DNA from: Leisingera aquaemixtae
GTDB lineage: Bacteria; Pseudomonadota; Alphaproteobacteria; Rhodobacterales; Rhodobacteraceae
Direction of reading: 5' to 3'
Assembly: GCF_019801145.1 (NCBI RefSeq)
Contig: NZ_JAHVJQ010000016.1
Coordinates: forward strand, 1-42,983
DNA length: 42,983 nucleotides
The translations under genes and the position numbers were made by a program. Positions 1 to 42,943 of this stretch are shown here, piece after piece. The notes beneath the pieces were generated by a model. It did no database searches, had not been told where the DNA came from, and saw only the letters and a program-made list of their open reading frames with translations. How positions within the stretch are numbered: the stretch's first letter is position 1; every line of letters starts with the position of its first letter.

Positions 1-152
1 TCATAAGCCGCATCGGAAAACCCCGCCGCAGCCCCCGCCCCGGTCTCGATCGCGCAAGTGTACCCCAGCTTCTGCAGCTGCGCCGCAGACTCCGGCGTCA
101 TCGCTACACGGTTTTCACCTGGCGCCAGCTCTTTTGGCGTTCCAATCAGCAC
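1..152 (-). CDS. pntA: NAD(P) transhydrogenase subunit alpha, N-terminal part (partial)
   Basis: The reverse strand encodes an N-terminus reading (V/M)LIGTPKELAPGENRVAMTP and continuing through an ESAAQL...GAGAAAGFSDAAY stretch. This is the conserved beginning of the alanine dehydrogenase/PntA NAD-binding domain of the proton-translocating transhydrogenase, which exchanges hydride between NADH and NADP+ at the inner membrane. The gene runs off the left edge after about 50 codons. I chose a GTG start at 152 because a GGGAGGAG Shine-Dalgarno sequence lies about 8 nt upstream. It is transcribed away from the F420 operon. Alanine dehydrogenase shares this N-terminal fold, so PntA is favoured but not certain from 50 residues. 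Confidence 0.75.
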   Translation of the reverse strand, partial: MLIGTPKELAPGENRVAMTPESAAQLQKLGYTCAIETGAGAAAGFSDAAY

Positions 153-352
153 GGCCGTTCTCCTCCCATTGCGCCGGACCCGTCTCACGGGTGAGTCGGA
201 TGGCGTCATTCATCATGTTTCTTGTTTTTTACCAGCTAGTCAAATTTTTAGCACACAGTCAATAAAAATATACCTCTGCACTACGCAATGCGCATTGTTT
301 CTTTTAATTTCATATTGTTAACAAGCATTCTGGTAATATTTTTTATCTAGTA

Positions 353-370
353 GTCAAAAATTTTGTTGAC
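353..370. promoter_or_regulatory. Palindrome overlapping a TTGACA box, possible operator of the F420 operon
   Basis: GTCAAAAATTTTGTTGAC is an imperfect 18-bp palindrome with perfect 5-bp arms (GTCAA/TTGAC). It ends inside a TTGACA hexamer at 366-371 that could be a -35 box, about 40 nt before the cofG start. A related half site (GTCAAATTTTT) lies at 239-249 in the same AT-rich gap between pntA and cofG. The -10 box is not obvious. A link to the TetR regulator at 7111 is a guess. Confidence 0.3.
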
Positions 371-411
371 AGAATCCGGGACTCCCACAAACCTAGATGC
401 AGGAGGAGCCC

Positions 412-1554
412 ATGAACATTCAACTGACCAAACCGAGTGAATCCTGGGCGGTGACCGGGGACCTGCACGCCTTGATGGCCCACGCCCGCCAGATCCGCGA
501 TGCCCATTGGGGGCGCACCGTCACCTATTCCCGCAAGGCCTTTGTGCCGCTGACCAACATGTGCCGTGACACCTGCGGCTACTGCACCTTCGTCAAGCAT
601 CCCGACTCGCCCGAGGCGAACATCATGACGCCGGAGCAGGTGCTGGCCACCGCCCGCCGCGGCGAACGGGAAGGCTGCAAGGAGCTGCTGTTCAGCCTCG
701 GCGAGAAACCGGAACTGCGCTACGAGAAGGCACGCAAAGCGCTGGAGAGGCTCGGCTATTCCAGCCTGACCGCCTATCTGGCCGAGATGTGCGCGCTGGT
801 GCTGCGGGAAACCTCGCTGTTGCCGCATGTGAATGCCGGCACGCTGACCAGCGAAGAGATCGACCTCTTGCGGCCGGTGTCAGCCTCGATGGGCATGATG
901 CTGGAAACCGTCAGCCGCCGCCTGACCCGCAAGGGCCAGCCGCATTATGCCTGCCCTGACAAGGTTCCGGTGCAGCGGCTGCGCACTCTGGAGCGAGCAG
1001 GCGAGAAAAGGGTGCCGTTCACCACCGGCCTTCTGATCGGAATCGGAGAAACCTTCGAAGAGCGGATCGAGGCGCTGCACGCGATCAATGACGCCCACGC
1101 CCGCCACGGCCACATCCAGGAAGTGATCATCCAGAACTTCCAGCGCAAGCCGGATATCGCCATGGCGAACCACCCGGAGCCGCCGCTGGAAGACATGCTG
1201 CGCACCATCGCGGCAGCCCGCATCATCCTGTCGCCGGACATCAGCCTGCAGGCGCCGCCGAATCTCAGCGCCCGCCACCTGGCCTACCTGGACGCAGGCA
1301 TCAACGACTGGGGCGGGATCTCGCCGGTCACCATCGACTTCATCAACCCGCAGCATGAATGGCCGGAAATCCGCCAGCTTGCCGCCTCCTGCACCCAGGC
1401 CCGGTTCCAGCTGCGCGAGCGGCTGACGGTCTACCCCAGCTACCTGGCCGCCGGAAGCGGCTTCATCGACCCGGAAATTCTGGCCCGCGCCTCCGGCATG
1501 GCGCAGGCCAACGGCCTGGCACGCGACCAGCAGCACATGGGAGAAACAGCATGA
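412..1554 (+). CDS. cofG: 7,8-didemethyl-8-hydroxy-5-deazariboflavin (Fo) synthase, CofG subunit
   Basis: A 380-residue radical-SAM enzyme. The cluster Cys motif CRDTCGYC (CX3CX2C, Cys51, Cys55, Cys58) follows the typical CofG lead-in YSRKAFVPLTN. Later motifs NAGTLTSEE, GMMLET and GGISPVTIDFINP fit CofG. With CofH it makes the deazaflavin Fo from 5-amino-6-ribitylaminouracil and tyrosine. I chose the ATG at 412, not 397, because an AGGAGGAG ribosome site sits just before it. The stop overlaps the cofH start (ATGA). In actinobacteria CofG and CofH are fused as FbiC; here they are separate genes with cofG first. Confidence is high. Confidence 0.95.
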   Translation: MNIQLTKPSESWAVTGDLHALMAHARQIRDAHWGRTVTYSRKAFVPLTNMCRDTCGYCTFVKHPDSPEANIMTPEQVLATARRGEREGCKELLFSLGEKPELRYEKARKALERLGYSSLTAYLAEMCALVLRETSLLPHVNAGTLTSEEIDLLRPVSASMGMMLETVSRRLTRKGQPHYACPDKVPVQRLRTLERAGEKRVPFTTGLLIGIGETFEERIEALHAINDAHARHGHIQEVIIQNFQRKPDIAMANHPEPPLEDMLRTIAAARIILSPDISLQAPPNLSARHLAYLDAGINDWGGISPVTIDFINPQHEWPEIRQLAASCTQARFQLRERLTVYPSYLAAGSGFIDPEILARASGMAQANGLARDQQHMGETA

Positions 1555-2822
1555 CCATCCAGCCCCCCGCAGAGAAGTTTGCCGCAGTCCCGGCTGCCGT
1601 CAGCGCCGCCTCTGCCCCGGTCCGCGCCATTCTGGAGATGGCTCTGGAAGGCGGAGAGGTTTCCGAAGCCGAGGGCACAGAGCTGTTCCGCGCCACGGGC
1701 GACGATGCAGAAGCGGTCTATGCCACTGCCGACGAATTGCGCCGCCGCGCCAACGGCGACCGGGTGTCATTCGTGGTCAACCGCAACATCAACTTCACCA
1801 ACATCTGTTACATGGGCTGCCGCTTCTGCGGCTTTGCCAAGCGCAGCGAGGACAAGGACGCCGAATGGCTGGAGCCCGCGCAGATCGTGGCGCGCGCGCA
1901 GCAGGCCTGGGACCGCGGCGCCACCGAGGTCTGCATCCAGGGCGGCCTGCACCCAAAGATGGAAGGCACCTATTACCGCGACGTCGTCCGTGCCATCAAA
2001 GCGGCGCTGCCGGACATGCACATCCACGCCTTCTCGCCGTTTGAGATCTGGTACGGTGCCTCCAAGACCAAGATGTCCTATCATGACTTCCTGGCCGATC
2101 TGAAGGAGGCGGGCCTCGGCTCGATGCCCGGAACCGCGGCGGAAATCCTCGATACCGAAGTGCGGATGCAGCTGACCAAGAACAAGCTGAGCGCCGAGAA
2201 ATGGGTCGAGATCATCCGCGCCGCGCATGAGGTTGGCATCCCGACCACCGCCACCATCATGTACGGCCATATCGACGGGCCCCAGCACTGGGCCGCGCAC
2301 ATCCGCCTGCTGCGCGACATCCAGAAGGACACCGGCGGCTTTACCGAGCTGGTGCCGCTCTCCTTCGTGCACACGGAATCGCCCCTCTGGGCGCAGAACC
2401 CGGACAAGGTGCGCCCCGGCCCCACCGCGCTGGAGGTGGACCTGATGCACGCGGTCTCGCGCATCATGCTGCACGGCTGGATCGACAACATCCAGGTTAG
2501 CTGGACCAAGCTGGGCGCGGCGCGGGCGCAAGAGATGCTGTCGCGCGGGGTCAATGACCTCGGCGGCACGCTGATGAACGAAAGCATCTCCCGCGCGGCC
2601 GGATCGGACCACGGCCAGGAAATCACCGCCCGCGAATTGGTGCAGATCATTCGCGCCGCGGGCCGGGTGCCGGTGCGCCGCGGCACGACCTACGGCGTCC
2701 GCGAGGTTTATGAACACCACGACCCCGAGGTGATCGCGCCGCTGGTGGATCGCCAGGGCCGCGACCCGCTGGCCTTTCTCGAGATGTTCCCGGAGCGCCC
2801 CGCGCTGGAGGCCGCGGAATGA
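1551..2822 (+). CDS. cofH: 5-amino-6-(D-ribitylamino)uracil-L-tyrosine 4-hydroxyphenyl transferase, CofH
   Basis: A 423-residue radical-SAM protein with cluster motif CYMGCRFC (Cys86, Cys90, Cys93) after NRNINFTNI, then GGLHP, HAFSPFEI and GTAAEILD. This is the CofH half of Fo synthase, which couples a tyrosine-derived fragment to the ribityl-diaminouracil. The reading frame is open upstream inside cofG, but the start at 1551 overlaps the cofG stop (ATGA) and gives the family-like N-terminus MTIQPP. It overlaps cofD by ATGA at its 3' end. An N-terminal helical stretch of about 70 residues precedes the radical-SAM core, as in other CofH proteins. Confidence 0.95.
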   Translation: MTIQPPAEKFAAVPAAVSAASAPVRAILEMALEGGEVSEAEGTELFRATGDDAEAVYATADELRRRANGDRVSFVVNRNINFTNICYMGCRFCGFAKRSEDKDAEWLEPAQIVARAQQAWDRGATEVCIQGGLHPKMEGTYYRDVVRAIKAALPDMHIHAFSPFEIWYGASKTKMSYHDFLADLKEAGLGSMPGTAAEILDTEVRMQLTKNKLSAEKWVEIIRAAHEVGIPTTATIMYGHIDGPQHWAAHIRLLRDIQKDTGGFTELVPLSFVHTESPLWAQNPDKVRPGPTALEVDLMHAVSRIMLHGWIDNIQVSWTKLGAARAQEMLSRGVNDLGGTLMNESISRAAGSDHGQEITARELVQIIRAAGRVPVRRGTTYGVREVYEHHDPEVIAPLVDRQGRDPLAFLEMFPERPALEAAE

Positions 2823-3787
2823 GCAGCGCAGGCAAACATAAGGTGACGCTGCTGGCCGGCGGCGTCGGCGGTGCCAAGATGGCCGAGGGCCTGGCAGCTC
2901 TGCCGGACGTGGCACTGTCGGTGATCGGCAACGTCGCGGATGACGATAACTTTCACGGTCTCTGGGTGTCGCCCGATATCGACACCCTGACCTACAGCCT
3001 GGGCAATGTGATCGACCGCAACCAGGGCTGGGGCGTCGCGGATGAGGGCCACCGGGCGCTGGAGACGCTGAACAAGCTGGGCGCAGACACCTGGATGTCG
3101 CTGGGCGACCGCGACTTCGGCCTGCATATTTACCGCACCATGCGGCGGCGGCGCGGCGACCGGCCCAGCGATATTGCCCGCGACGTTGCCCGCGCTTTTG
3201 GCGTCGCGGCAGAGATCGTGCTGCCCACCGATGATACCGTGCAGACCCGGGTGCGCACCGATGCAGGCTGGCTGAGTTTTCAGGAGTATTTCGTGCGCGA
3301 ACGCTGCGCGCCGGAGGTCCGGGAACTGGCTTTCGAGGGCCTCGGCCAGGCCCGCCCAACGCCGGGGGCGCTGGAAGCGGTCCGCGCGGCAGACCTGATC
3401 GTGATTGCGCCATCTAATCCGCTGGTCAGCATAGCCCCGATCCTGGGCGTGCCGGGCATAGCGGACGCGGTGCAGGCCTCCGCCGCCCCCAAGATCGCGG
3501 TCAGCCCCTTCATCGCCGGCAAAGTCGTGAAAGGCCCCGCCGACCGGATGATGCAGGCACTGGGGGAGCGGGCAGATGCAATTGGCGTCGCCCGCCGCTA
3601 CCGCGGTCTCGCCGCGTCATTGTTCATCGACCACGCCGACGCTGCGCTTGGGGGTGCCATCCGCGCCGAGGGGCTGGAGCCGGTCTGCAGCCGCATCCTG
3701 ATGCAGACCCAAGAGGACAAGGCCCGGCTGGCCCGCGAAATCGTCGACCTGGCCTTTGCCCCGGCCCATCTGGAGGCAAACGCATGA
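2819..3787 (+). CDS. cofD: 2-phospho-L-lactate (or 2-phosphoenolpyruvate) transferase, CofD/FbiA
   Basis: A 322-residue protein with the CofD N-terminus LLAGGVGGAKMAEGLA, the NVADDDNFHGLWVSPDIDTL segment, SLGDRDFGLHIYRT and, late, the phosphate-handling PSNPLVSIAPIL motif. It transfers the phospho-acyl moiety from the GDP-activated donor made by CofC to Fo, giving F420-0 or dehydro-F420-0. In bacteria the donor can derive from 2-phospholactate, phosphoenolpyruvate or 3-phosphoglycerate, and the sequence alone does not say which applies here. It overlaps both neighbours by ATGA, so translation is probably coupled. Length is normal. Confidence 0.95.
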   Translation: MSSAGKHKVTLLAGGVGGAKMAEGLAALPDVALSVIGNVADDDNFHGLWVSPDIDTLTYSLGNVIDRNQGWGVADEGHRALETLNKLGADTWMSLGDRDFGLHIYRTMRRRRGDRPSDIARDVARAFGVAAEIVLPTDDTVQTRVRTDAGWLSFQEYFVRERCAPEVRELAFEGLGQARPTPGALEAVRAADLIVIAPSNPLVSIAPILGVPGIADAVQASAAPKIAVSPFIAGKVVKGPADRMMQALGERADAIGVARRYRGLAASLFIDHADAALGGAIRAEGLEPVCSRILMQTQEDKARLAREIVDLAFAPAHLEANA

Positions 3788-4443
3788 CCCGCGGAGCGAA
3801 CAGCGGCAAGCGGCTGGCCGTGATCCCGATGAAAGACCCGTCAAAGGCCAAGACCCGGCTTGCGGTTGCCTTGACGCCGCAGGAGCGAAAGGTGCTGGCA
3901 GAGGGCCTTTTCCAGGCCACCGTCGCGAAACTGCAAGAGGCCCTTGCCCGGCTCCCCGGCGATGCGGTTGACATCGCCGTGGTCAGCAACAGCCCGGTGA
4001 TTTCCCGGATTGCCCGCCAGGTCGGCCTCTTCTGCATCGACGACCAGGACCCCGGCTCGCTGTCGCTGGCGGTGGAAGCCGCCGCCGGCTGGGCGGCGCA
4101 GCAGGGGTACGCAGCGCTCTGCGTTCTGCCCGGCGACCTCGCCGCCCCCGCGGTGGAGGACTTCACCCGGCTGCTGGCGCACCCGCTGGATGAGGCCAGC
4201 GCGGTGTTTTGCCCGGCCAAGGATCTGGGCACAAATGCGCTGCTGGCGCCCCTGCCCTGCCCCTTCCCGTTCCGCTACGGGCCGAAATCGCTGATCGCGC
4301 ATCTGCAGGCGGCTGAGGCTGCCGGGCTCTGTGCCAAGGTTCTGCCGCTCACCAGCCTGCGGATCGACGTCGACACCGCCGAGGATCTTGATCACCTGCT
4401 GGCCCATAACCCGCAGGCGCTGGTGCGGGAGGGCGCGCAATGA
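3784..4443 (+). CDS. cofC: Phospholactate/phosphoenolpyruvate guanylyltransferase, CofC/FbiD
   Basis: A 219-residue nucleotidyltransferase. The N-terminal LAVIPMKDPSKAKTRLA is the GTP-binding signature of CofC/FbiD, followed by VVSNSP, VLPGDLA and, near the end, LRIDVDTAEDL. It activates a three-carbon phospho-acid with GTP to make the unstable donor used by CofD, which is encoded directly upstream. The start at 3784 overlaps the cofD stop, and the stop overlaps the cofE start. CofC decides which acid enters F420, so it determines whether the cofactor is standard F420 or a variant such as 3PG-F420; I cannot tell which from the sequence. Confidence 0.93.
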   Translation: MTRGANSGKRLAVIPMKDPSKAKTRLAVALTPQERKVLAEGLFQATVAKLQEALARLPGDAVDIAVVSNSPVISRIARQVGLFCIDDQDPGSLSLAVEAAAGWAAQQGYAALCVLPGDLAAPAVEDFTRLLAHPLDEASAVFCPAKDLGTNALLAPLPCPFPFRYGPKSLIAHLQAAEAAGLCAKVLPLTSLRIDVDTAEDLDHLLAHNPQALVREGAQ

Positions 4444-5213
4444 GCCTCTCCGTCTCTCTCACCGCAATTCCCGGCGTTCCGGATATCCGGAACGGCGACG
4501 ATCTGGCCGCGGTTCTGGGCGATTGCCTGGTTCGGGCCGGCCTGCCGCTGAAACGCGGCGACATCCTGTGTGTCGCGCAGAAGGTATTTTCCAAAGCGGA
4601 GGGCTGCATCATCCCGCTGACCTCGGTGACGCCCTCGGCGGAAGCGCTGAAATACGCCGAAGAGCTGAACAAGGACCCCCGCAAGGTCGAGATCGTGCTG
4701 CGCGAAAGCACCCGCGTGGTGCGCGCTTTCCGCCGCCCGGACCAGAACGAGGGCACGATGATCTGTGAGCACCGGCTCGGCTTCATCTCCGCCAATGCGG
4801 CGGTGGATGAATCGAACTTCGGCGAGGAGGACGCGGCGATGGTGCTGCCGCCCGATCCGGATGCCAGCTGCGCCCGGCTGCAGCAGGATCTGTCGCACCG
4901 CTTTGACGCCGAAATCGGCGTGGTGATGACCGACACCTTCGGCCGTCCTTGGCGGTTGGGCCAGGTCAATGTGGCCATCGGCCTGGCCAAGGTGCCCGCA
5001 ACCATCCGCGAACAGGGCAATACCGACGCCTGGGGCAGGCCGCTGCAGGTGACCGAACCCGCACTGGCGGATGAAATCGCCGCCGCCTCGGGGCTGGTGG
5101 TGCGCAAGAACGGAAAGACACCGGCGGTGCTTCTGCGCGGGCTCGACTGGCAGCCCGCCGACAGCCGCGGCGCCGACATACTTAGGAAAAAACAGGAGGA
5201 TATGTTCCGATGA
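4440..5213 (+). CDS. cofE: Coenzyme F420-0:L-glutamate ligase, CofE
   Basis: A 257-residue CofE-type gamma-glutamyl ligase. Motifs include [56 protein letters not shown] and a C-terminal [11 protein letters not shown]. It adds glutamates to F420-0 to form the polyglutamyl tail. Mycobacterial FbiB carries an extra C-terminal nitroreductase/FMN domain of about 200 residues; this protein lacks it and matches the stand-alone archaeal length. If CofD makes dehydro-F420-0 here, the reductase for it must be another protein. Coupled by ATGA overlaps to cofC and npdG. Confidence 0.94.
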
Positions 5214-5878
5214 GGATCGCAATCATTGGCGGCACCGGACCGCAGGGACAGGGGCTTGCGTTGCGCTTTGCCCGCGCAGGGATCAAAGTGGCGCTCGGCT
5301 CGCGCGATGGCGAACGCAGCGCCGGCATCGCGGCAGAGCTGATGGCGAAGCTGCCCGCGGGCGCCGCCGAAATCACCGGTCTCGACAACGAAACCGCCAC
5401 CGCGGCGGCGGATGAGATGGTGATCCTAGCGGTGCCGTTTTCGGCCCATAACGCCACGCTGGAGGCGCTGAAGCCGGGCCTCGCGGGCAAGATCCTGGTC
5501 GACATCGTGGTGCCGCTGAAAGAAGGCGACCCCAAAAAGGTGGAGATGCCCCCCGAAGGCTCCGCCACCGAGGCCGCGCAGGCGCTTCTGGGCGACGATA
5601 TCCCGGTGATCGGCGCGCTGCACAACGTCTCTGCCACCACGCTCAACAATCTGGACTGGCCGATCAACTGCGACATCCTGGTCTGCGGCAACAGCCTGCC
5701 TGCCCGCAAGAAGGTGATCGAACTGGTCGGCACGCTGGATGTCCAGGCCTACAACGCCGGCGACGCCGAGGCCGCCCGCTGCATCGAGGCGATCACCCCG
5801 ATCCTGATCCGCCAGAACATTTCCAAGGCGGTGCCCTTCACCCATGCGGGCATCCGCATCTGGGCCCCCGATCACTGA
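5210..5878 (+). CDS. npdG: NADPH-dependent F420 reductase (F420:NADP oxidoreductase)
   Basis: A 222-residue Rossmann protein beginning [20 protein letters not shown], the Fno/NpdG NADP-binding signature, then [28 protein letters not shown] and IRIWAPDH. It passes hydride between NADPH and F420, so it supplies F420H2 to dependent enzymes. The stop is 24 bp before the next gene, which has its own GAGGAGG ribosome site. Its place at the end of the biosynthetic genes means the operon makes the cofactor and also reduces it. F420 reducing enzymes of the Fgd (glucose-6-phosphate) type are not seen. Confidence 0.9.
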
Positions 5879-5902
5879 GATTCCAACGAGGAGGAAACAC
5901 AC

Positions 5903-6943
5903 ATGGAATTCGGTATTTGCTTCAAGGGCTTCGTTGAGCCCGAACGCGCACGCGCTCTGGTCCGCCAGGCCGAGAACGCAGGCTTCACCTACTGCTGGTT
6001 CTACGACAGCCACATCCTGTGGCGCGAAAGCTTTGTCGCGATGGCGATGTGCATGGAGCACACAACCAACATGCGCTTCGGCCCGCTGGTGACCAACCCG
6101 AACTCGCGCGAATGGTCGGTTGCGGCCTCGCTGTTCGGCTCGCTGGCGAAACAGTCCGGCGGCCGTTTCGACATCGGCCTGGGCCGCGGCGACAGCGCCG
6201 TGCGGGTGATGGGCAAGAAGCCCTCGACCATCAAGCGGATGGAAGAATTCACCCATGTGGTCAAATCGCTGATCCGCGGCGAGGAAGTGCAGTACGGCGA
6301 ATGCCCCGAACCGGTGAAATTCCCTTGGGCCAACGGCTATGAGCTGCCGGTCTGGATCGGCGCCTACGGCCCCAAGGCGTTGGCCTCGGCCGGCAAGGTC
6401 GGCGACGGCGTGGTGCTGCAGATTGCCGAGCCCAAGATCATCAAATGGCTGGCGGATCAGGCCAAGGCCGGCGGTGAGGCCGAAGGCCGCGACATGTCGA
6501 ACTACCGCGTGATGGCGGCAGCGCCCGCCCATACCGGTTCGATTGAGGAAGGCATCGAAAAGACCAAGTGGTTCCCTGCCATGGTCGGCAACCATGTCGC
6601 TGACATCGTTGAGAAATACGGCACCGGCGGCGATCACGTACCGACCAGCCTGACCGACTACATCAAGAACCGCAAGGGCTACGACTACTCCAAGCACGGC
6701 CAGAGCGATAACCCGTATCTGGACTTCATCACAGAAGACATCGTCAAGAGCTTCTGCGTGCTGGGCACCCCGGATGAGCATATCGCCAAGATCCGCGATC
6801 TCGAAGCGGCTGGCACCACCCAGTTCAACATCTACCTGGACAGCGGCGACGAGGAGAAGATCATCGCCGACTACGGTGATCACATCATCCCGGCCTTCCG
6901 CGAGGACAGCACCTTGTCGTCCCCGATGCTGGCTGCGTCGTAA
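5903..6943 (+). CDS. LLM-class F420-dependent oxidoreductase, CPS_4043-like family (function unknown)
   Basis: A 346-residue luciferase-like TIM-barrel protein starting MEFGICFKGFVEPERARALV, with FYDSHILWRE, MEHTTNMRFGPLVTNP, GRFDIGLGRGDSAVRVMGKKP and WIGAYGPKALASAGKVGDGVVLQ. These resemble methylene-tetrahydromethanopterin reductase (Mer) and, to my recollection, the family modelled as TIGR03842 (CPS_4043), whose proteobacterial members are often the only apparent F420-dependent LLM protein in the genome and whose reaction is unknown. It has a GAGGAGG site 24 bp after npdG and is followed by a strong hairpin, so it is probably the last gene of the F420 operon and the main user of the cofactor. 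FMN use instead of F420 cannot be excluded. Confidence 0.85.
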   Translation: MEFGICFKGFVEPERARALVRQAENAGFTYCWFYDSHILWRESFVAMAMCMEHTTNMRFGPLVTNPNSREWSVAASLFGSLAKQSGGRFDIGLGRGDSAVRVMGKKPSTIKRMEEFTHVVKSLIRGEEVQYGECPEPVKFPWANGYELPVWIGAYGPKALASAGKVGDGVVLQIAEPKIIKWLADQAKAGGEAEGRDMSNYRVMAAAPAHTGSIEEGIEKTKWFPAMVGNHVADIVEKYGTGGDHVPTSLTDYIKNRKGYDYSKHGQSDNPYLDFITEDIVKSFCVLGTPDEHIAKIRDLEAAGTTQFNIYLDSGDEEKIIADYGDHIIPAFREDSTLSSPMLAAS

Positions 6944-6968
6944 CCATCTCCCCTGACGGCACAGCCTT

Positions 6969-7004
6969 CCGGCGGGCAGCCTCCCCTGCCCGCCGGTTCT
7001 GACT
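6969..7004 (+). terminator. Rho-independent-type terminator after the F420 operon
   Basis: A perfect 11-bp stem, CCGGCGGGCAG (6969-6979) and CTGCCCGCCGG (6986-6996), with a 6-nt loop. It lies 25 bp after the LLM gene and is followed by a weak T tract (TTCTGACT). It separates the F420 operon from the TetR gene, which is likely to have its own promoter. Confidence 0.7.
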
Positions 7005-7110
7005 CCGGCGCCCTTCTTCGGACCGCCCAACCGCCCGGCCCGCTGGCCTTCGCTCTCGAGTTGTGCCAAGACAGCGCCGATTCAGATTGATATGAAATGG
7101 CGGATTCCGC

Positions 7111-7734
7111 ATGGCGCGCATGGCATCAGAGAAACCGAAGACCAAGATTCAGCGTCAGAAAACGGAACAGATCATGGCCGCCGCGCTTGAGGTCTTTGCC
7201 CGGCACGGCTCCTCCGGCGCATCGATCAACATGATCGCCAAGACCGCCGGGCTGACCACTCCCAACCTGCTCTACTACTTCGAAAGCAAGGACGCGATCC
7301 GGCAGGAGCTTCTGGGCCGCACGCTGCAGCTGTGGATGGCCCCCCTCAGCATGCTCAGCCCGCGCGGCGAACCGATCGACGAGATCTGCGAATACATCCG
7401 CCGCAAGCTGGAGGTGTCGCGGAACTTCCCCCGGGAAAGCAAGTTCTTCGCCAATGAGCTGCTGAGCGGCCAGCCGCAAAACCGCAGCGAGATATTCGGC
7501 CCGCTGAAGGACCTCTACAATGCCAAGATCCTGATGCTGGAAGACTGGATGCAGGAGGGCAAGATCGCAACCGTCGACCCGCATCATCTGCTGTTCTCGA
7601 TCTGGGCCACCACACAGCACTATGCCGACTTCGATGTCCAGATTGAGGAAATTGCCCCTGCCAAGGCGGAAGACCGCTATGTTGAAGCGGAGGTATTTCT
7701 TCTGGAGATGTACAAGAAGCTGCTCACGGTCTGA
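7111..7734 (+). CDS. TetR-family transcriptional regulator, RutR-like
   Basis: A 207-residue TetR protein. The HTH spans roughly residues 17-65 (IMAAALEVFARHGSSGASIN...LTTPNLLYYFESKDAI). The C-terminal ligand domain has features of the RutR subgroup, such as FPRESKFFANELLSGQP, DLYNAKILMLEDWMQEGKI and FSIWATTQHYADFDVQI. RutR of E. coli senses uracil and controls pyrimidine use. The gene follows the F420/LLM operon in the same direction after a terminator, so it may control that operon, but this is inference from proximity. Two close ATG codons (7111, 7120) are possible starts; neither has a good ribosome site. Confidence 0.85.
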   Translation: MARMASEKPKTKIQRQKTEQIMAAALEVFARHGSSGASINMIAKTAGLTTPNLLYYFESKDAIRQELLGRTLQLWMAPLSMLSPRGEPIDEICEYIRRKLEVSRNFPRESKFFANELLSGQPQNRSEIFGPLKDLYNAKILMLEDWMQEGKIATVDPHHLLFSIWATTQHYADFDVQIEEIAPAKAEDRYVEAEVFLLEMYKKLLTV

Positions 7735-25624: not shown

Positions 25625-25903
25625 ATGGGAACGAAGCGACACAAGCCCAAAGAGATTGTCACTAGGTTTCGGCAGGTTGAGGTGCTTGTCGGTCACGGGA
25701 TGCAGCGCGTGGATGCGATCCGCGAAGTGCGCATCACCGAGCAGACCTACTACTGCTGGCGCAAGCAATATGGCGGGATGGGAACCGACCAGCTCATGGA
25801 ATTCAAACGGCTGCAGAAAGAAAACAAGCGGCTGCGTCGCGCCGTTTCGGATCTAACCCTGGACAAGCTCACCCTGTCGGAGGCTCCAAAGGGAAACTTC
25901 TGA
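25625..25903 (+). CDS. IS3-family transposase OrfA
   Basis: A 92-residue HTH protein, MGTKRHKPKEIVTRFRQVEV, with RITEQTYYCWRKQYGGMG and a leucine-zipper-like tail (EFKRLQKENKRLRRAVSDLT). It is the DNA-binding OrfA that IS3 elements fuse with OrfB by programmed frameshifting. The length is normal and the gene looks intact, but its OrfB partner is broken. Confidence 0.85.
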   Translation: MGTKRHKPKEIVTRFRQVEVLVGHGMQRVDAIREVRITEQTYYCWRKQYGGMGTDQLMEFKRLQKENKRLRRAVSDLTLDKLTLSEAPKGNF

Positions 25904-28085: not shown

Positions 28086-28121
28086 CGCCTAAAACGATAT
28101 GTTTGAACTAAGTTGCATACT

Positions 28122-28757
28122 ATGCGTGTGGTTCACAATATGAGAAGTGATATTCGGGGCGTTCTTTTAAGGTCATTGGATCAATTATCGGAATGCGGCT
28201 ATTCCATCGGAGTCGGCTTTGACGGCGTAGAGCCGGTCTTTGTTCACAGCACCTACAACCAGCGCTGGATAGACAGATATGTCGATCAGGGTTACCTGCT
28301 GATAGATCCGACTATTCAATTCGGGCTGAGCAGCACCGGCCAGGCAACCTGGAAGGAGCTTGAACGCCTTTTCCCGTCATCCAGAGCATTTTTTGAAGAT
28401 GCCGCGAACTATGGGCTGCACCACGGGAATACCCTGGCGATCAGCGCTGACGGGCGTGTCTCGGTTCTGAGCTGCTCCGGCCCTGAGTGGGGCAAAGAGG
28501 ACCTGCGGATCGCGCGCACAGCTCTGCACGCGCTTCACGCACTGGAGTACGAGCCGTCAAACCCGGTTACGCTGACGGAGCCGGTGAAGGATGTCCTCCG
28601 CCTGATGTGCGGCGGCTGCAAGGATCAGGAAATCGCGGACCGTTTGGGCGTGAAGCTGGAAACCGTCCGGGCAAGACGTAGAACCGCCCTGCAGGCGCTT
28701 GAAGCGAAAACAAGCGCGCAGCTCATATCACAAGTGATAAAATTCAAACTAATCTGA
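28122..28757 (+). CDS. LuxR-family quorum-sensing transcriptional regulator
   Basis: A protein of about 211 residues. The N-terminal autoinducer-binding domain keeps the Trp/Tyr/Asp pattern (YNQRWIDRYVDQGYLLIDPT and a following W in QATWKELERLF). The C-terminal GerE-type HTH reads LTEPVKDVLRLMCGGCKDQE and IADRLGVKLETVRARRRTA. The usual LTxREREVL lead has LTEPVKDVL, so the normally invariant Glu is replaced. Starts at 28122 or 28140 are both possible and no good ribosome site is seen. It is encoded 61 bp before luxI in the same direction and most likely senses the product of that synthase. Confidence 0.88.
   Translation: MRVVHNMRSDIRGVLLRSLDQLSECGYSIGVGFDGVEPVFVHSTYNQRWIDRYVDQGYLLIDPTIQFGLSSTGQATWKELERLFPSSRAFFEDAANYGLHHGNTLAISADGRVSVLSCSGPEWGKEDLRIARTALHALHALEYEPSNPVTLTEPVKDVLRLMCGGCKDQEIADRLGVKLETVRARRRTALQALEAKTSAQLISQVIKFKLI
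28726..28739. promoter_or_regulatory. Lux-box-like palindrome at the luxR 3' end, before luxI
   Basis: TATCACAAGTGATA has perfect 6-bp arms (TATCAC/GTGATA). It lies inside the last codons of luxR, 79 bp before the luxI start, a suitable place for activating luxI. It is the partner of the palindrome at 28068-28085. Confidence 0.6.
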
Positions 28758-30285: not shown

Positions 30286-31059
30286 TTAAAGTGCCGCGCC
30301 ATTGGTTTTGGCAAGGCTTATGCCACTGTCCTGCAGCGCACTGCGCACGGCAACTGCAATTGCAAGGGCTGCCGGGGTGTCACCATGAAGGCAGATGGTG
30401 TCGATCCGGGTTCCGATCCGTTTTCCGCTGGCTGTTATTATGGCTCCCTCGCGCACCATCTCTACCATCCGCCGCCCAGCCTCTGCCGGGTCATGTATCA
30501 CAGCGCCCGGCAGGCTGCGGTCCACCAGCGTCGCATCGTCGTTATAGGCGCGGTCGGCAAAGATCTCGCACGCAGTGTTGCACCCCACTTCCTGTGCTGC
30601 CTGCTGCTGGGCGGTGCCCGCCAGCACCATCACGATGATCGCCGGATCGACTGACAAGGCCGCCTGATAGCAGGCCCGCGCCATCCCAATGTCTTCCGAG
30701 GCCATATTGGCCAGCGCCCCGTGCAGCTTCAGATGCCGCACTGCACCTCCGGCTGCGCGCGCCATTGCCTGCGCTGCACCCAGCTGGTAGCGCACCATGT
30801 TGCCCAGCGTCCCATAGGACACTGACATCCGGCGGCGGCCAAAGCCCTGCAGGTCGGGAAAGCCCGGATGCGCGCCAATCCCAACATCCTTGACCACCGC
30901 ATTCTTCATAGTCGCGGCCATCACATCCGGATCGCCCGCGTGAAAGCCGCAGGCGATATTGGCCGAGGTCACGATATCAAGCAGCCCGGTATCATCTCCT
31001 AAGGACCAGCTGCCAAAGCTTTCGCCCATGTCGGCATTCAGATCGACAGTCCTGGTCAT
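30286..31059 (-). CDS. pxpA: 5-oxoprolinase subunit A (LamB/YcsF family)
   Basis: A 257-residue LamB/YcsF protein: VDLNADMGESFGSWSLGDD, NIACGFHAGDPDVMAATM, GAHPGFPDLQGFGRR and HGDTPAALAIAVAVR near the C-terminus. With PxpB and PxpC it forms the ATP-dependent prokaryotic 5-oxoprolinase that opens pyroglutamate to glutamate. It is the last gene of the minus-strand operon, 9 bp after pxpC. The length is normal. Confidence 0.92.
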   Translation of the reverse strand: MTRTVDLNADMGESFGSWSLGDDTGLLDIVTSANIACGFHAGDPDVMAATMKNAVVKDVGIGAHPGFPDLQGFGRRRMSVSYGTLGNMVRYQLGAAQAMARAAGGAVRHLKLHGALANMASEDIGMARACYQAALSVDPAIIVMVLAGTAQQQAAQEVGCNTACEIFADRAYNDDATLVDRSLPGAVIHDPAEAGRRMVEMVREGAIITASGKRIGTRIDTICLHGDTPAALAIAVAVRSALQDSGISLAKTNGAAL

Positions 31060-31068
31060 GTCATCTCC

Positions 31069-32085
31069 TCACACGACATCATCTTCACCGGCAATCGCGC
31101 CGCTGATCAGCTGATAGGACAGCAGGTTGGACATGGTGCGCGGGTCCCGGATCAGCGGAAAGCACAGGCTGCCCAGACCCTTACGCCGCTCCGCCTCGGC
31201 CCGCTCCAGCGCCACCGCTTCCTCCAGCGCAATGAAACGGAACTTCAGCGCCACTCCCGCCGCCGCCTGCGCCAGCACGGGCAGATCGCAAGGAAGAACC
31301 GTGCCGATCCGCGGATAGCCGCCCGTGGTCTGGCATTCCGACAGCAGAACATAAGGCGTGCCATCGCCGGTCACCTGGATATCGCCAGGCACGATCACCT
31401 CCGACACCACCGTGCGCGCGCCTTCAGGGCGGAAGCCCACGCCACTGCCCTCCAGCGGCACACCCATGCGGTTGCCTCTGGCGCCGCGGCGGAAGGTTGA
31501 CTGCTCGAACCGCGAAAGCTCAGCTTGCGGGAACAGCGCCGTCTGCAGACTGGGCACAACCCGCACCGTGCCGCCCTCGAACCGGTTCTCGGGCGCCAGC
31601 CCAAGCCCGGTGGTGCGGCCGCTGTCAGGACCGGTTTCCAGCACTTCCCCTTCTGCCAGCGGCGTGCCAATGCCCCCTGCCAGATGCGCCGAACGCGCGC
31701 CCAGAAGCTCCGGTGTCTCAATGCCGCCGCCCACGTGCAGATAGCCAAAGCTGCCGCTGCGTGCCATGCCGATGGCCAGCCGCGCGCCCGCGGGCAACAA
31801 GTAGCTGGCGTTCCAGGCCACAGCGGCACCGTCGATGCTCGCCCGCATCGGCGCGCCGGTCAGGGCAATGCGCAGATCGTTGTTCGCCTGAAACTCGCCG
31901 CCCATACCGGCCATCTCGACCGCCGCTAGATCCGCGCCCTGCCCCAGCAGCGCCGCGCCCTCGGCCAGCGCCAGCCGGTCGGCAGCGCCGCCGCGCGAGA
32001 CCCCGTATTCCAGCCAGCCCGGGCGGCCGCTGTCCTGAACCGTCACCCGTGGTCCGGCGCGTAAGACGGTCAATGTACCGCTCAT
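31069..32085 (-). CDS. pxpC: 5-oxoprolinase subunit C (biotin-dependent carboxyltransferase-like)
   Basis: A 338-residue protein of the KipA/PxpC family: VLRAGPRVTVQDSGRPGWLE, YGVSRGGAADRLALAEGAAL, GYLHVGGGIETPELLGARSA and, near the end, LLSECQTTGGYPRIGTVLPC and DLPVLAQAAAG. It overlaps pxpB by ATGA. The similarity to urea-amidolyase domains gives misleading automatic names such as allophanate hydrolase subunit 2. The order pxpB-pxpC-pxpA is a common one. Confidence 0.9.
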   Translation of the reverse strand: MSGTLTVLRAGPRVTVQDSGRPGWLEYGVSRGGAADRLALAEGAALLGQGADLAAVEMAGMGGEFQANNDLRIALTGAPMRASIDGAAVAWNASYLLPAGARLAIGMARSGSFGYLHVGGGIETPELLGARSAHLAGGIGTPLAEGEVLETGPDSGRTTGLGLAPENRFEGGTVRVVPSLQTALFPQAELSRFEQSTFRRGARGNRMGVPLEGSGVGFRPEGARTVVSEVIVPGDIQVTGDGTPYVLLSECQTTGGYPRIGTVLPCDLPVLAQAAAGVALKFRFIALEEAVALERAEAERRKGLGSLCFPLIRDPRTMSNLLSYQLISGAIAGEDDVV

Positions 32086-41215: not shown

Positions 41216-42866
41216 CACCGCGTTGCCCTCTACGCACGCTACTCCACCGACATGCAGAACCCGATGTCGGTCGAGGATCAGTTCCAGCTGAGCGAGCGCT
41301 ACGCCAGAGAGCGCGGCTGGGAGGTTACAGACCCTTACGCTGACAGCGCCATCAGCGGGACCGTGAGCCGCGCACGATCAGACTTCCAGCGTCTATCGGC
41401 AGACCTCGCCAGGGGCAGTTTTGATGTGGTTCTGGCCGAATCCATCGACCGCATTTCCCGAGACCCGGAGCATATCGCCGCCTTCTACAAAAGCGCCCGC
41501 TTCCGCGGCGTTGAGATCCACTCTTCCAACCGGGGAAAGGTCGACGCGCTGACGCTGGGCCTCTCCGCCATGTTCTCGGCGATGCACGTGGAAGAGCTGT
41601 CTCAAAAGACCCATCGAGGGCTGGAAGGCCGCGTCGAACAAGGCTTTAGCGCCGGCGGGAAGGTCTATGGCTACCAGCAGGGCACTGACGAGCGCGGCGC
41701 GCCGGTCAAAGGCAAACGCGCGATCGACGAGATCGAAGCCGCCGTGGTGCGCAGCATCTTCCGAGACTATGCCGCAGGGCTCTCGCCGATCGCCATCGCC
41801 AATCGCTTGAATGAAGAGGGGATCCCCTCCCCCTCTGCGCGCACCAATCGCCGGTCGTCAGGACGCTGGAAACAGAACACAATCAACGGAAACCGGGAGC
41901 GGGGCAACGGCATCATCAACAATGAACTCTACATCGGCTGGCTGGTGTGGAACCGGCAGACCTTTGTGAAGAACCCTCAGACAGAGAAGCGCGTTGCTCA
42001 ACCGAACCCGAAGAGCGAATGGCGTACCGCCGAGGTACCTGAACTGCGCATCATCGACCAGGACCTCTGGGATGAAGTGAAAGCCCGGCAAGCCGCCCTG
42101 TCGAAGCGCAGCGCAAAGATCAAAGCCAGCGACCGCAACAAGCTCTCGGCCGGGCAGACCCTTCGCCGGAGGAAGTACCTCCTGTCCGGCCTCCTGCACT
42201 GCGGCCTCTGCGGCGGCAAGATTACCGTCGCCGGGAGCGGCAAATACAAGACCTACTACTGCGCCAACGCCAAGGAGATGGGTCCCAGCGTCTGCACCGG
42301 GTTTCGGGGCCTTCGGGAGAGCGTAGCCCAGCCTCTCGTACTGTCAGGCCTGCGGGGCGAGCTGATGAAGCCCGAGGCCTACGAGCACTTCCGGAAACGG
42401 TTCCATAAGCGTCTCGTCGAGAGCCAGGGCGCCGCCGAGGAAAGGCTGCGCATCCACGACGCCCGCCTGCACGAACTGGAGACGAAGGAACGCAACCTCC
42501 TGCAAGCCATTGAAGACGGGGCCTTCTCACCGGTGATCAATGAGCGCCTGAACGCCGTGCATGAGGAACTGACAGCAATGAGGGACAAACGCGCTGAGTA
42601 TGTTCGCCGCAGGTGGAGCTGCCCGAGGAACTGCCGGAACTCAACCGGGCGATGGTGGCGGACCTGGCAGCATCGCTGTCGGACGAGGCTGTTGCCGGCC
42701 GGGCCGCCGATGAACTGCATGAGTTCGTCGAGCGTGTGGTGGTGCATTGGGACGAAGATGCGCAGGGCCACTGGCTCTCGATCGAGGGCAACCTGTTGGA
42801 GATGCTACGCAAATCGGCGCCGAGAGAACTCGACGCCGTGCGTGGTGATGCGATTTTCGCGAACGT

Positions 42867-42888
<22 letters not shown>
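41216..42888 (+). pseudogene. Large serine recombinase at the right island end, probably inactive
   Basis: Full domain set: resolvase N-domain with the nucleophile serine in VALYARYSTD, then MSVEDQ and the arginine motif ESIDRISRDPEH; recombinase domain (KVYGYQQ, NRLNEEGIPSPSAR); zinc ribbon (LHCGLCGGKI, YYCANAKEMGPSVC); coiled-coil tail. Two defects are visible. The frame carrying the catalytic serine has no ATG, GTG or TTG between its upstream stop (41120) and that serine, and the first ATG (41252) lies after it. At about 42598-42613 a one-base loss moves the tail (VELPEELPELNRAMVADLAA and onward) into another frame ending at 42888. Its 3' end includes the att core and overlaps the tRNA 3' end. 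Confidence 0.85.

Positions 42889-42943
<55 letters not shown>

Follow-up and report, generated by a model that had tools for sequence, protein, structure and literature searches.

The window analysed here is a stretch of 42,983 nucleotides that begins with base 1 of contig C16 (NZ_JAHVJQ010000016.1) in the Leisingera aquaemixtae assembly GCF_019801145.1, which consists of 50 contigs and 4.88 Mb. Close to its start is an operon for the cofactor F420 that ends in a gene for an LLM-class F420-dependent oxidoreductase, and the role of this enzyme is the main question considered. All seven genes are on the plus strand. They are cofG (FO synthase subunit 1; 412-1554; TIGR03550, 458 bits, cut-off 213), cofH (FO synthase subunit 2, with a CofH_C domain; 1551-2822; TIGR03551, 504 bits, cut-off 374), cofD (2-phospho-L-lactate transferase; 2819-3787; TIGR01819, 273 bits, cut-off 257), cofC (guanylyltransferase; 3784-4443; TIGR03552, 140 bits, cut-off 105), cofE (F420-0:L-glutamate ligase; 4440-5213; TIGR01916, 225 bits, cut-off 181), npdG/fno (NADPH:F420 oxidoreductase; 5210-5878; TIGR01915, 191 bits, cut-off 149.8) and the LLM gene (5903-6943; TIGR03842, 505 bits, cut-off 295.45), whose product is proposed to be a uracil/thymine reductase. 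The first six genes are joined by five 4-bp overlaps in succession and a gap of 24 bp separates fno from the LLM gene. An original prediction, made from the sequence alone, had described this gene order with its 4-bp overlaps, and all seven genes were found where it had placed them, each over its NCBIfam cut-off. CofG, CofH, CofD, CofC and CofE make up a complete F420 biosynthesis set. Gene order and NCBIfam matches also bear out the prediction that the making, charging and using of F420 are brought together in one operon.

The features on either side of these genes are part of the system proposed here. A RutR-like TetR regulator gene follows on the plus strand (7111-7734); its product has a PF08362 YcdC-like domain and reaches 198 bits with TIGR03613, under the cut-off of 368, and a TetR gene occupies the matching position on Leisingera plasmids. 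On the minus strand at 1-173 (end approximate) lies the 5' part of pntA (NAD(P) transhydrogenase alpha), truncated at the contig start, with the reverse-strand translation VLIGTPKELAPGENRVAMTPESAAQLQKLGY; pntA is annotated at the corresponding place on the Leisingera plasmids. The Escherichia coli RutR consensus, which we take to be TTGACCANNTGGTCAA, has 14 specified bases. The best copy of a putative RutR-type operator in the window, at 228-243 and without assigned strand, agrees with 12 of these 14 bases (p 0.0025 by mononucleotide shuffle of 412 bp). Two weaker putative operators, likewise without strand, are at 247-262 and 342-357, each differing at two bases from a degenerate pattern picked post hoc, after the window sequence had been read. 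The RutR operator is described as a 16-bp palindrome (PMC10891134). The span first given for the system, 412-6943, has the genes right and omits the TetR gene, the start of pntA and the putative operators at about 1-357.

CofE has a single F420_ligase domain in Pfam, confirming that it lacks the flavin mononucleotide (FMN) domain of FbiB. The C-terminal nitroreductase-like domain of FbiB was not found by Pfam in CofE or in the operon, a search that did not extend to stand-alone reductases in the rest of the genome. In Mycetohabitans CofC, Ser162 is reported as the mark of 3-phosphoglycerate (3PG) use (PMC8764529). At this position there is a Gly in the window CofC and in the 11 other aligned CofC rows (12/12), rather than the Ser or Thr by which the same paper recognises producers of 3PG-F420, and this form of the cofactor was set aside because of that Gly. 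The best substrate of the Paracoccus denitrificans CofC is given there as 2-phospholactate. Because of this preference and the Gly at the 3PG-diagnostic position, ordinary F420 is predicted as the product, although phosphoenolpyruvate (PEP) with a separate reductase is also compatible. The choice of donor acid, which had been left entirely open, is narrowed by the argument against 3PG, probably to PEP or phospholactate, which CofC assays cannot tell apart according to PMC8764529 itself.

The operon is rare, as had been predicted. CofD, counted at E<=0.001, is present in 12 of the 248 sampled genomes of the GTDB family of the window (10 over the curated cut-off) and in 5 of 398 genomes sampled from the phylum. 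A survey of relatives had been suggested, and in the family sample CofD and TIGR03842 over its cut-off are found in the identical 12 genomes, with the two genes a few kb apart. At E<=0.001 TIGR03842 matches in 195 of the 248, of which 183 are sub-cut-off relatives. The LLM gene is present in 2 of the 398 phylum genomes, both of which are among the five with CofD and both of which have pyd genes; at the other three CofD loci, where the LLM gene is absent, there was no pyd, TetR or NCS1 match within 10-20 kb. One of these three (L179, G491:C156), from another alphaproteobacterium, is a 10.5-kb contig in which the cof genes match in broken pieces, and is either decayed or badly sequenced.

The LLM protein of the window has 97% identity over 96% of the query to that of Leisingera daeponensis and 99% to that of Leisingera sp. 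ANG1. It consists of a Bac_luciferase domain only (Pfam). Relatives were compared in a set of 81 loci, being the window and the closest 80 of 271 named relatives, many of them mutually related. In the 81 sequences, which come from alpha- and gammaproteobacteria, 134 positions are invariant. The closest solved fold, ranking first among the folds listed, is that of methylene-tetrahydromethanopterin reductase (Mer; 8QPL, 1Z69), which also uses F420. It is scarcely credible, for all this likeness, that the LLM enzyme is a bacterial Mer or a related one-carbon (C1) enzyme. The catalytic Glu6 of Mer, as described in PMC11094777, aligns with Cys (53) or Thr (28) in 81 of 81 LLM sequences, and a Mer function was set aside for this reason. 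In addition, the window protein scores 130 bits against the Mer model, which has a cut-off of 349, and the gene context differs, with no C1-pathway genes recognised among the named recurring neighbour families. Only three places in the window genome match PF00296: the operon, a place within a 1559-codon open frame on contig C13, and one on C12 that has no NCBIfam match at E<=1e-40. The idea that the LLM enzyme is one among many F420 users was set aside on this count, other user families such as PF01243 not having been searched.

The neighbourhoods of the 81 loci associate the LLM gene with reductive pyrimidine degradation. Either pydB or pydC is near it in 39 of the 81 loci (30 of the 48 with full flanks) and a RutR-like TetR gene in 45; at least one of pydB, pydC, TetR and NCS1 is present in 55 (34 of the 48). 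Further recurring neighbours are AptA-type omega-aminotransferase (9), MMSDH (5) and ABC transporters. The operon adjoins reductive pyrimidine-degradation genes in Leisingera plasmids, P. denitrificans, Pseudovibrio and Marinomonas. On two complete plasmids of Leisingera (175.6 and 250.4 kb), NCS1, hydA (dihydropyrimidinase), a Zn hydrolase, an aminotransferase, pntB and pntA stand in a row, divergent from cofG-H-D-C-E-npdG-LLM-TetR. In P. denitrificans DSM 413 the operon lies directly beside dihydropyrimidinase, PydC, a nucleobase transporter and a RutR-like gene, and there is no PreA over cut-off. In genome G450, which is outside the family of the window, a single stretch carries pydB, NCS1, pydC and TetR along with the complete cof operon, fno, the LLM gene and mmsA. 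The original prediction was right to see the LLM enzyme as an F420 user, and missed both the role of this user and the link to pyrimidine catabolism. Correlations of tree distance between LLM and its neighbours are from 0.75 to 0.94 and are high for every partner, so no single partner is singled out by them.

Three of the 11 plasmid records were examined (L180, L181 and L182), and these place the cluster on plasmids typed as non-mobilizable in L. aquaemixtae, L. caerulea and Paracoccus alcaliphilus. One locus of the set, L089 (JAHVJD010000013.1), is labelled Nocardioides marinus and is probably from a mislabelled Roseobacteraceae genome.

The charging enzyme varies between the loci. The charging gene is fno in 73 of the 81 loci and Fgd in seven (L121, L126, L130, L137, L148, L156 and L049); no locus has both and one has neither (L162). 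The identity of Fgd was checked in one locus, L130, where TIGR03554 gives 475 bits (cut-off 420). In the Fgd architecture cofE, Fgd, an FbiC-type fusion, cofC and cofD are divergent from the LLM gene. The constant part across both architectures is the LLM gene.

Two sets of pyd genes are present in the window genome. At the start of contig C4 are an aminotransferase (196-1512), pydC (1581-2807), pydB (2837-4291) and an NCS1 transporter (4403-5731). The pydB product matches dihydropyrimidinase TIGR02033 with 610 bits. The PydC matches TIGR01879 with 401 bits (cut-off 204) and NF006769 with 691 bits, and from its context it is a putative ureidopropionase. Leisingera sp. ANG1 (G248, the source of locus L084) has these genes across from cofG. 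Positions 2-6255 of C4 and 1-7715 of the window align at about 90-91% to either side of a 2.7-kb stretch of ANG1, in which pntA and the gene preceding it are located. The window therefore very probably continues across the assembly gap into pntAB and the pyd genes. The second, classical cluster is on contig C1, with PreA, pydB, pydC, TetR and an ABC transporter. Its PydB has 85.6% identity to the PydB of the F420 cluster in genome G056 and 72.7% to its own paralogue on the F420 side, a pattern which indicates that one second-step enzyme, PydB, serves both the PreA and the F420 first steps.

The distribution of PreA is complementary to that of the LLM gene. Of the 248 genomes in the family sample, 206 have PreA (NF006183) and 220 have dihydropyrimidinase (TIGR02033) over cut-off. 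All but one of the 12 LLM genomes have dihydropyrimidinase over cut-off; the exception, G033, is 74% complete. PreA is over cut-off in three of the 12 (the window genome, G238 and G107), and the other nine have nothing above 66 bits. Among the genomes with dihydropyrimidinase, PreA is lacking from 8 of 11 that have the LLM gene, compared with 14 of 209 that do not (Fisher p 3.7e-7, a guide only, since kinship of the genomes is ignored and the cross-table was made by hand from lists). A second set, with at least four genomes overlapping the first, comprises the 49 genomes with named LLM loci. In these dihydropyrimidinase is found in 47 and PreA in 10, leaving 37 with the second enzyme of the route and without the classical first one.

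It is quite likely that the cof-fno-LLM operon supplies the reductive half of a system for pyrimidine catabolism (Pyd), in which the LLM enzyme would be an F420H2-dependent pyrimidine reductase that replaces or parallels PreTA. The genes, their linkage and shared distribution, the complementarity with PreA and the putative operators are all read from sequence. CofG, CofH, CofD, CofC and CofE would produce ordinary F420, which Fno would reduce with NADPH; Fgd would recharge it in the second architecture. The NADPH may be supplied in Leisingera by the adjoining pntAB. The TIGR03842 enzyme would then use F420H2 as hydride donor to reduce uracil or thymine at the 5,6 double bond, giving the dihydropyrimidine. 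The later steps would fall to PydB as the dihydropyrimidinase, to PydC as a Zn-dependent amidohydrolase of ureidopropionase type and to a beta-alanine aminotransferase, joined at some loci by malonate-semialdehyde dehydrogenase (MmsA). A RutR-like TetR, presumably uracil-sensing, would regulate the system. The substrate of the LLM enzyme, the direction of its reaction and this regulation are what we infer. In the LLM enzyme, PreTA/PydA would have an isofunctional substitute from an unrelated family.

Several observations weigh against this assignment. In the family sample, 14 of the 209 genomes with dihydropyrimidinase and without the LLM gene have no PreA over cut-off either; nine of these have no match at E<=1e-80 and five have a sub-cut-off match. 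In two of the 49 LLM genomes no dihydropyrimidinase passes the cut-off (G289, with locus L156, Roseisalinus antarcticus; and G294, with locus L134, a Rhodospirillaceae metagenome-assembled genome). The specific name given by NCBIfam to the PydC (NF006769) is allantoate amidohydrolase. The NCS1 proteins are slightly under their cut-off (329 and 351 against 353), the TetR score is well below that for RutR (198 against 368 bits), and the operator scan depends on the RutR consensus taken here, TTGACCANNTGGTCAA. The window genome itself retains a PreA-type cluster, so the LLM enzyme is not needed there to fill a gap. The 14 family genomes with neither first enzyme over cut-off (e.g. G008, G068, G150, G176 and G226) may hold another one, or use the hydrolase otherwise.

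The retention of PreA, in the window genome and nine more of the 49 as well as in G238 and G107, suggests some division of labour. It would fit an LLM enzyme that acts on another substrate of nucleobase breakdown, such as a 5-hydroxymethyl- or 5-methyl-type pyrimidine, a purine-derived ring or a toxic carbonyl like malonic semialdehyde, with uracil being reduced by a different enzyme. This is unlikely, however, in that no linked gene other than that of the LLM enzyme is a candidate for the first step in the 37 of 47 dihydropyrimidinase-bearing LLM genomes that have no PreA over cut-off. PydB and PydC are moreover interchangeable between PreA and F420 clusters, and the 134 invariant positions speak for a single function.

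In a scan of the 81 loci (1.45 Mb) with the RutR consensus, 16 sites matched at least 13 of the 14 bases, five of them perfectly, and ten shuffles gave 0. These sites are not independent, with four of them in a single locus (L117). Fifteen of the 16 are just upstream of cofG, cofD/LLM, pydC/TetR or mmsA, and the sixteenth is 40 bp before cofG. At a threshold of at least 12 of 14 bases there are 51 sites compared with 3.0 expected, and 35 of the 51 are upstream of the named genes. In the seven Fgd-type loci, the best match in the 700 bp preceding the LLM gene agrees at 9 to 12 bases. An earlier box test upstream of cofG covered 62 of the 81 loci, 19 (the window included) being left out for having no cofG match or less than 250 bp upstream; p was <=0.05 by dinucleotide shuffle in 38 of the 62 and not in the other 24, and the cofG start is probably misplaced for L084 and L085.

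A general F420 system would be tied to pyrimidines only by shared regulation or neighbourhood, for example through uracil-type sensing since FO derives from a ribityl-aminouracil precursor, and the LLM enzyme would then be a detoxifying reductase. The absence of any pyd-type neighbour at 26 of the 81 loci, 14 of them among the 48 with full flanks, agrees with such a system and counts against the Pyd assignment. So does the Paracoccus alcaliphilus plasmid, where there are no pyd genes within 13 kb of the operon, and the complete classical route that is also in the window genome favours it too. It is nevertheless highly improbable. Putative RutR-type sites precede cofG even at loci that have no pyd neighbours (L110, L120, L122, L127, L128 and L135), and the pattern of PreA loss is not explained by a general system. 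The co-occurrence of CofD with one LLM gene in 12 of 12 genomes is also unlike a general cofactor with many users.

The proposed pyrimidine reductase would carry out the same reaction as PreTA/PydA, which uses NADH or NADPH, FMN, FAD and iron-sulphur (Fe-S) clusters, and it has the same partners in PydB, PydC, a RutR-like TetR and transporters. It differs in being from another protein family, a single luciferase-like barrel that uses F420H2 and has no Fe-S domains; the PydA/PreA architecture of a DHOD-type FMN barrel with a ferredoxin domain (NF006183) was not found in the LLM protein. A Pyd cluster with a swapped electron donor is likewise known from the ferredoxin-dependent PydAc of Clostridium chromiireducens (PMC7332683). 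PydAc is described there as a PydA homologue, whereas in the LLM case the enzyme family itself would be swapped. A luciferase-family F420 enzyme has also been proposed to act on a uracil-type ring in the uric-acid clusters of Chloroflexota, as a putative F420-dependent 'yanthine' reductase (PMC12507026). This is in a purine pathway and was proposed from gene neighbourhood only, and the available text of that paper draws no connection with pyrimidine catabolism, with RutR or with cof operons. The RutA pyrimidine monooxygenase (5WAN, 6SGL) is a ring-opening FMN oxygenase, whereas the neighbours of the LLM gene are hydrolases of the reductive route.

It is fairly likely that with TIGR03842 a dihydropyrimidine dehydrogenase dependent on F420H2 is recognised for the first time. 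This luciferase-like enzyme, of one domain and lacking Fe-S clusters, would have taken the place of PreTA in many marine alpha- and gammaproteobacteria, and the entire F420 pathway of these bacteria would be within a uracil-controlled catabolic regulon, plasmid-borne with its own transhydrogenase in Leisingera. The literature searched, in which subscription papers were mostly outside coverage, contained no report of an F420-dependent pyrimidine reductase or of TIGR03842, and prior publication is possible. A 2021 review of F420 treats the reason for its presence in Proteobacteria as unanswered and reports only traces in P. denitrificans (PMC8498797). Such low amounts on ordinary media would be expected if the bacteria make F420 on demand, for the use of pyrimidines. 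The proposed use of uracil and thymine suggests why some marine bacteria make F420. If the assignment is true, TIGR03842 gains a function, the target reaction of fluoropyrimidine metabolism gains an unrelated enzyme family, and F420 gains a physiological role beyond actinobacteria and archaea.

Other features of the window lie downstream of the operon. Signs of mobile DNA are a transposase helix-turn-helix fragment (25625-25903) and a large serine recombinase (41252-42910). A protein with an autoinducer-binding (LuxR-type) domain is encoded at 28113-28757 and is followed, in a region up to 29484, by a 221-codon open reading frame without a Pfam match at E<=1e-5; the two are possibly a quorum-sensing pair. 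On the minus strand, the region 30286-32085 encodes a LamB/YcsF protein together with a carboxyltransferase-domain protein, resembling a 5-oxoprolinase set.

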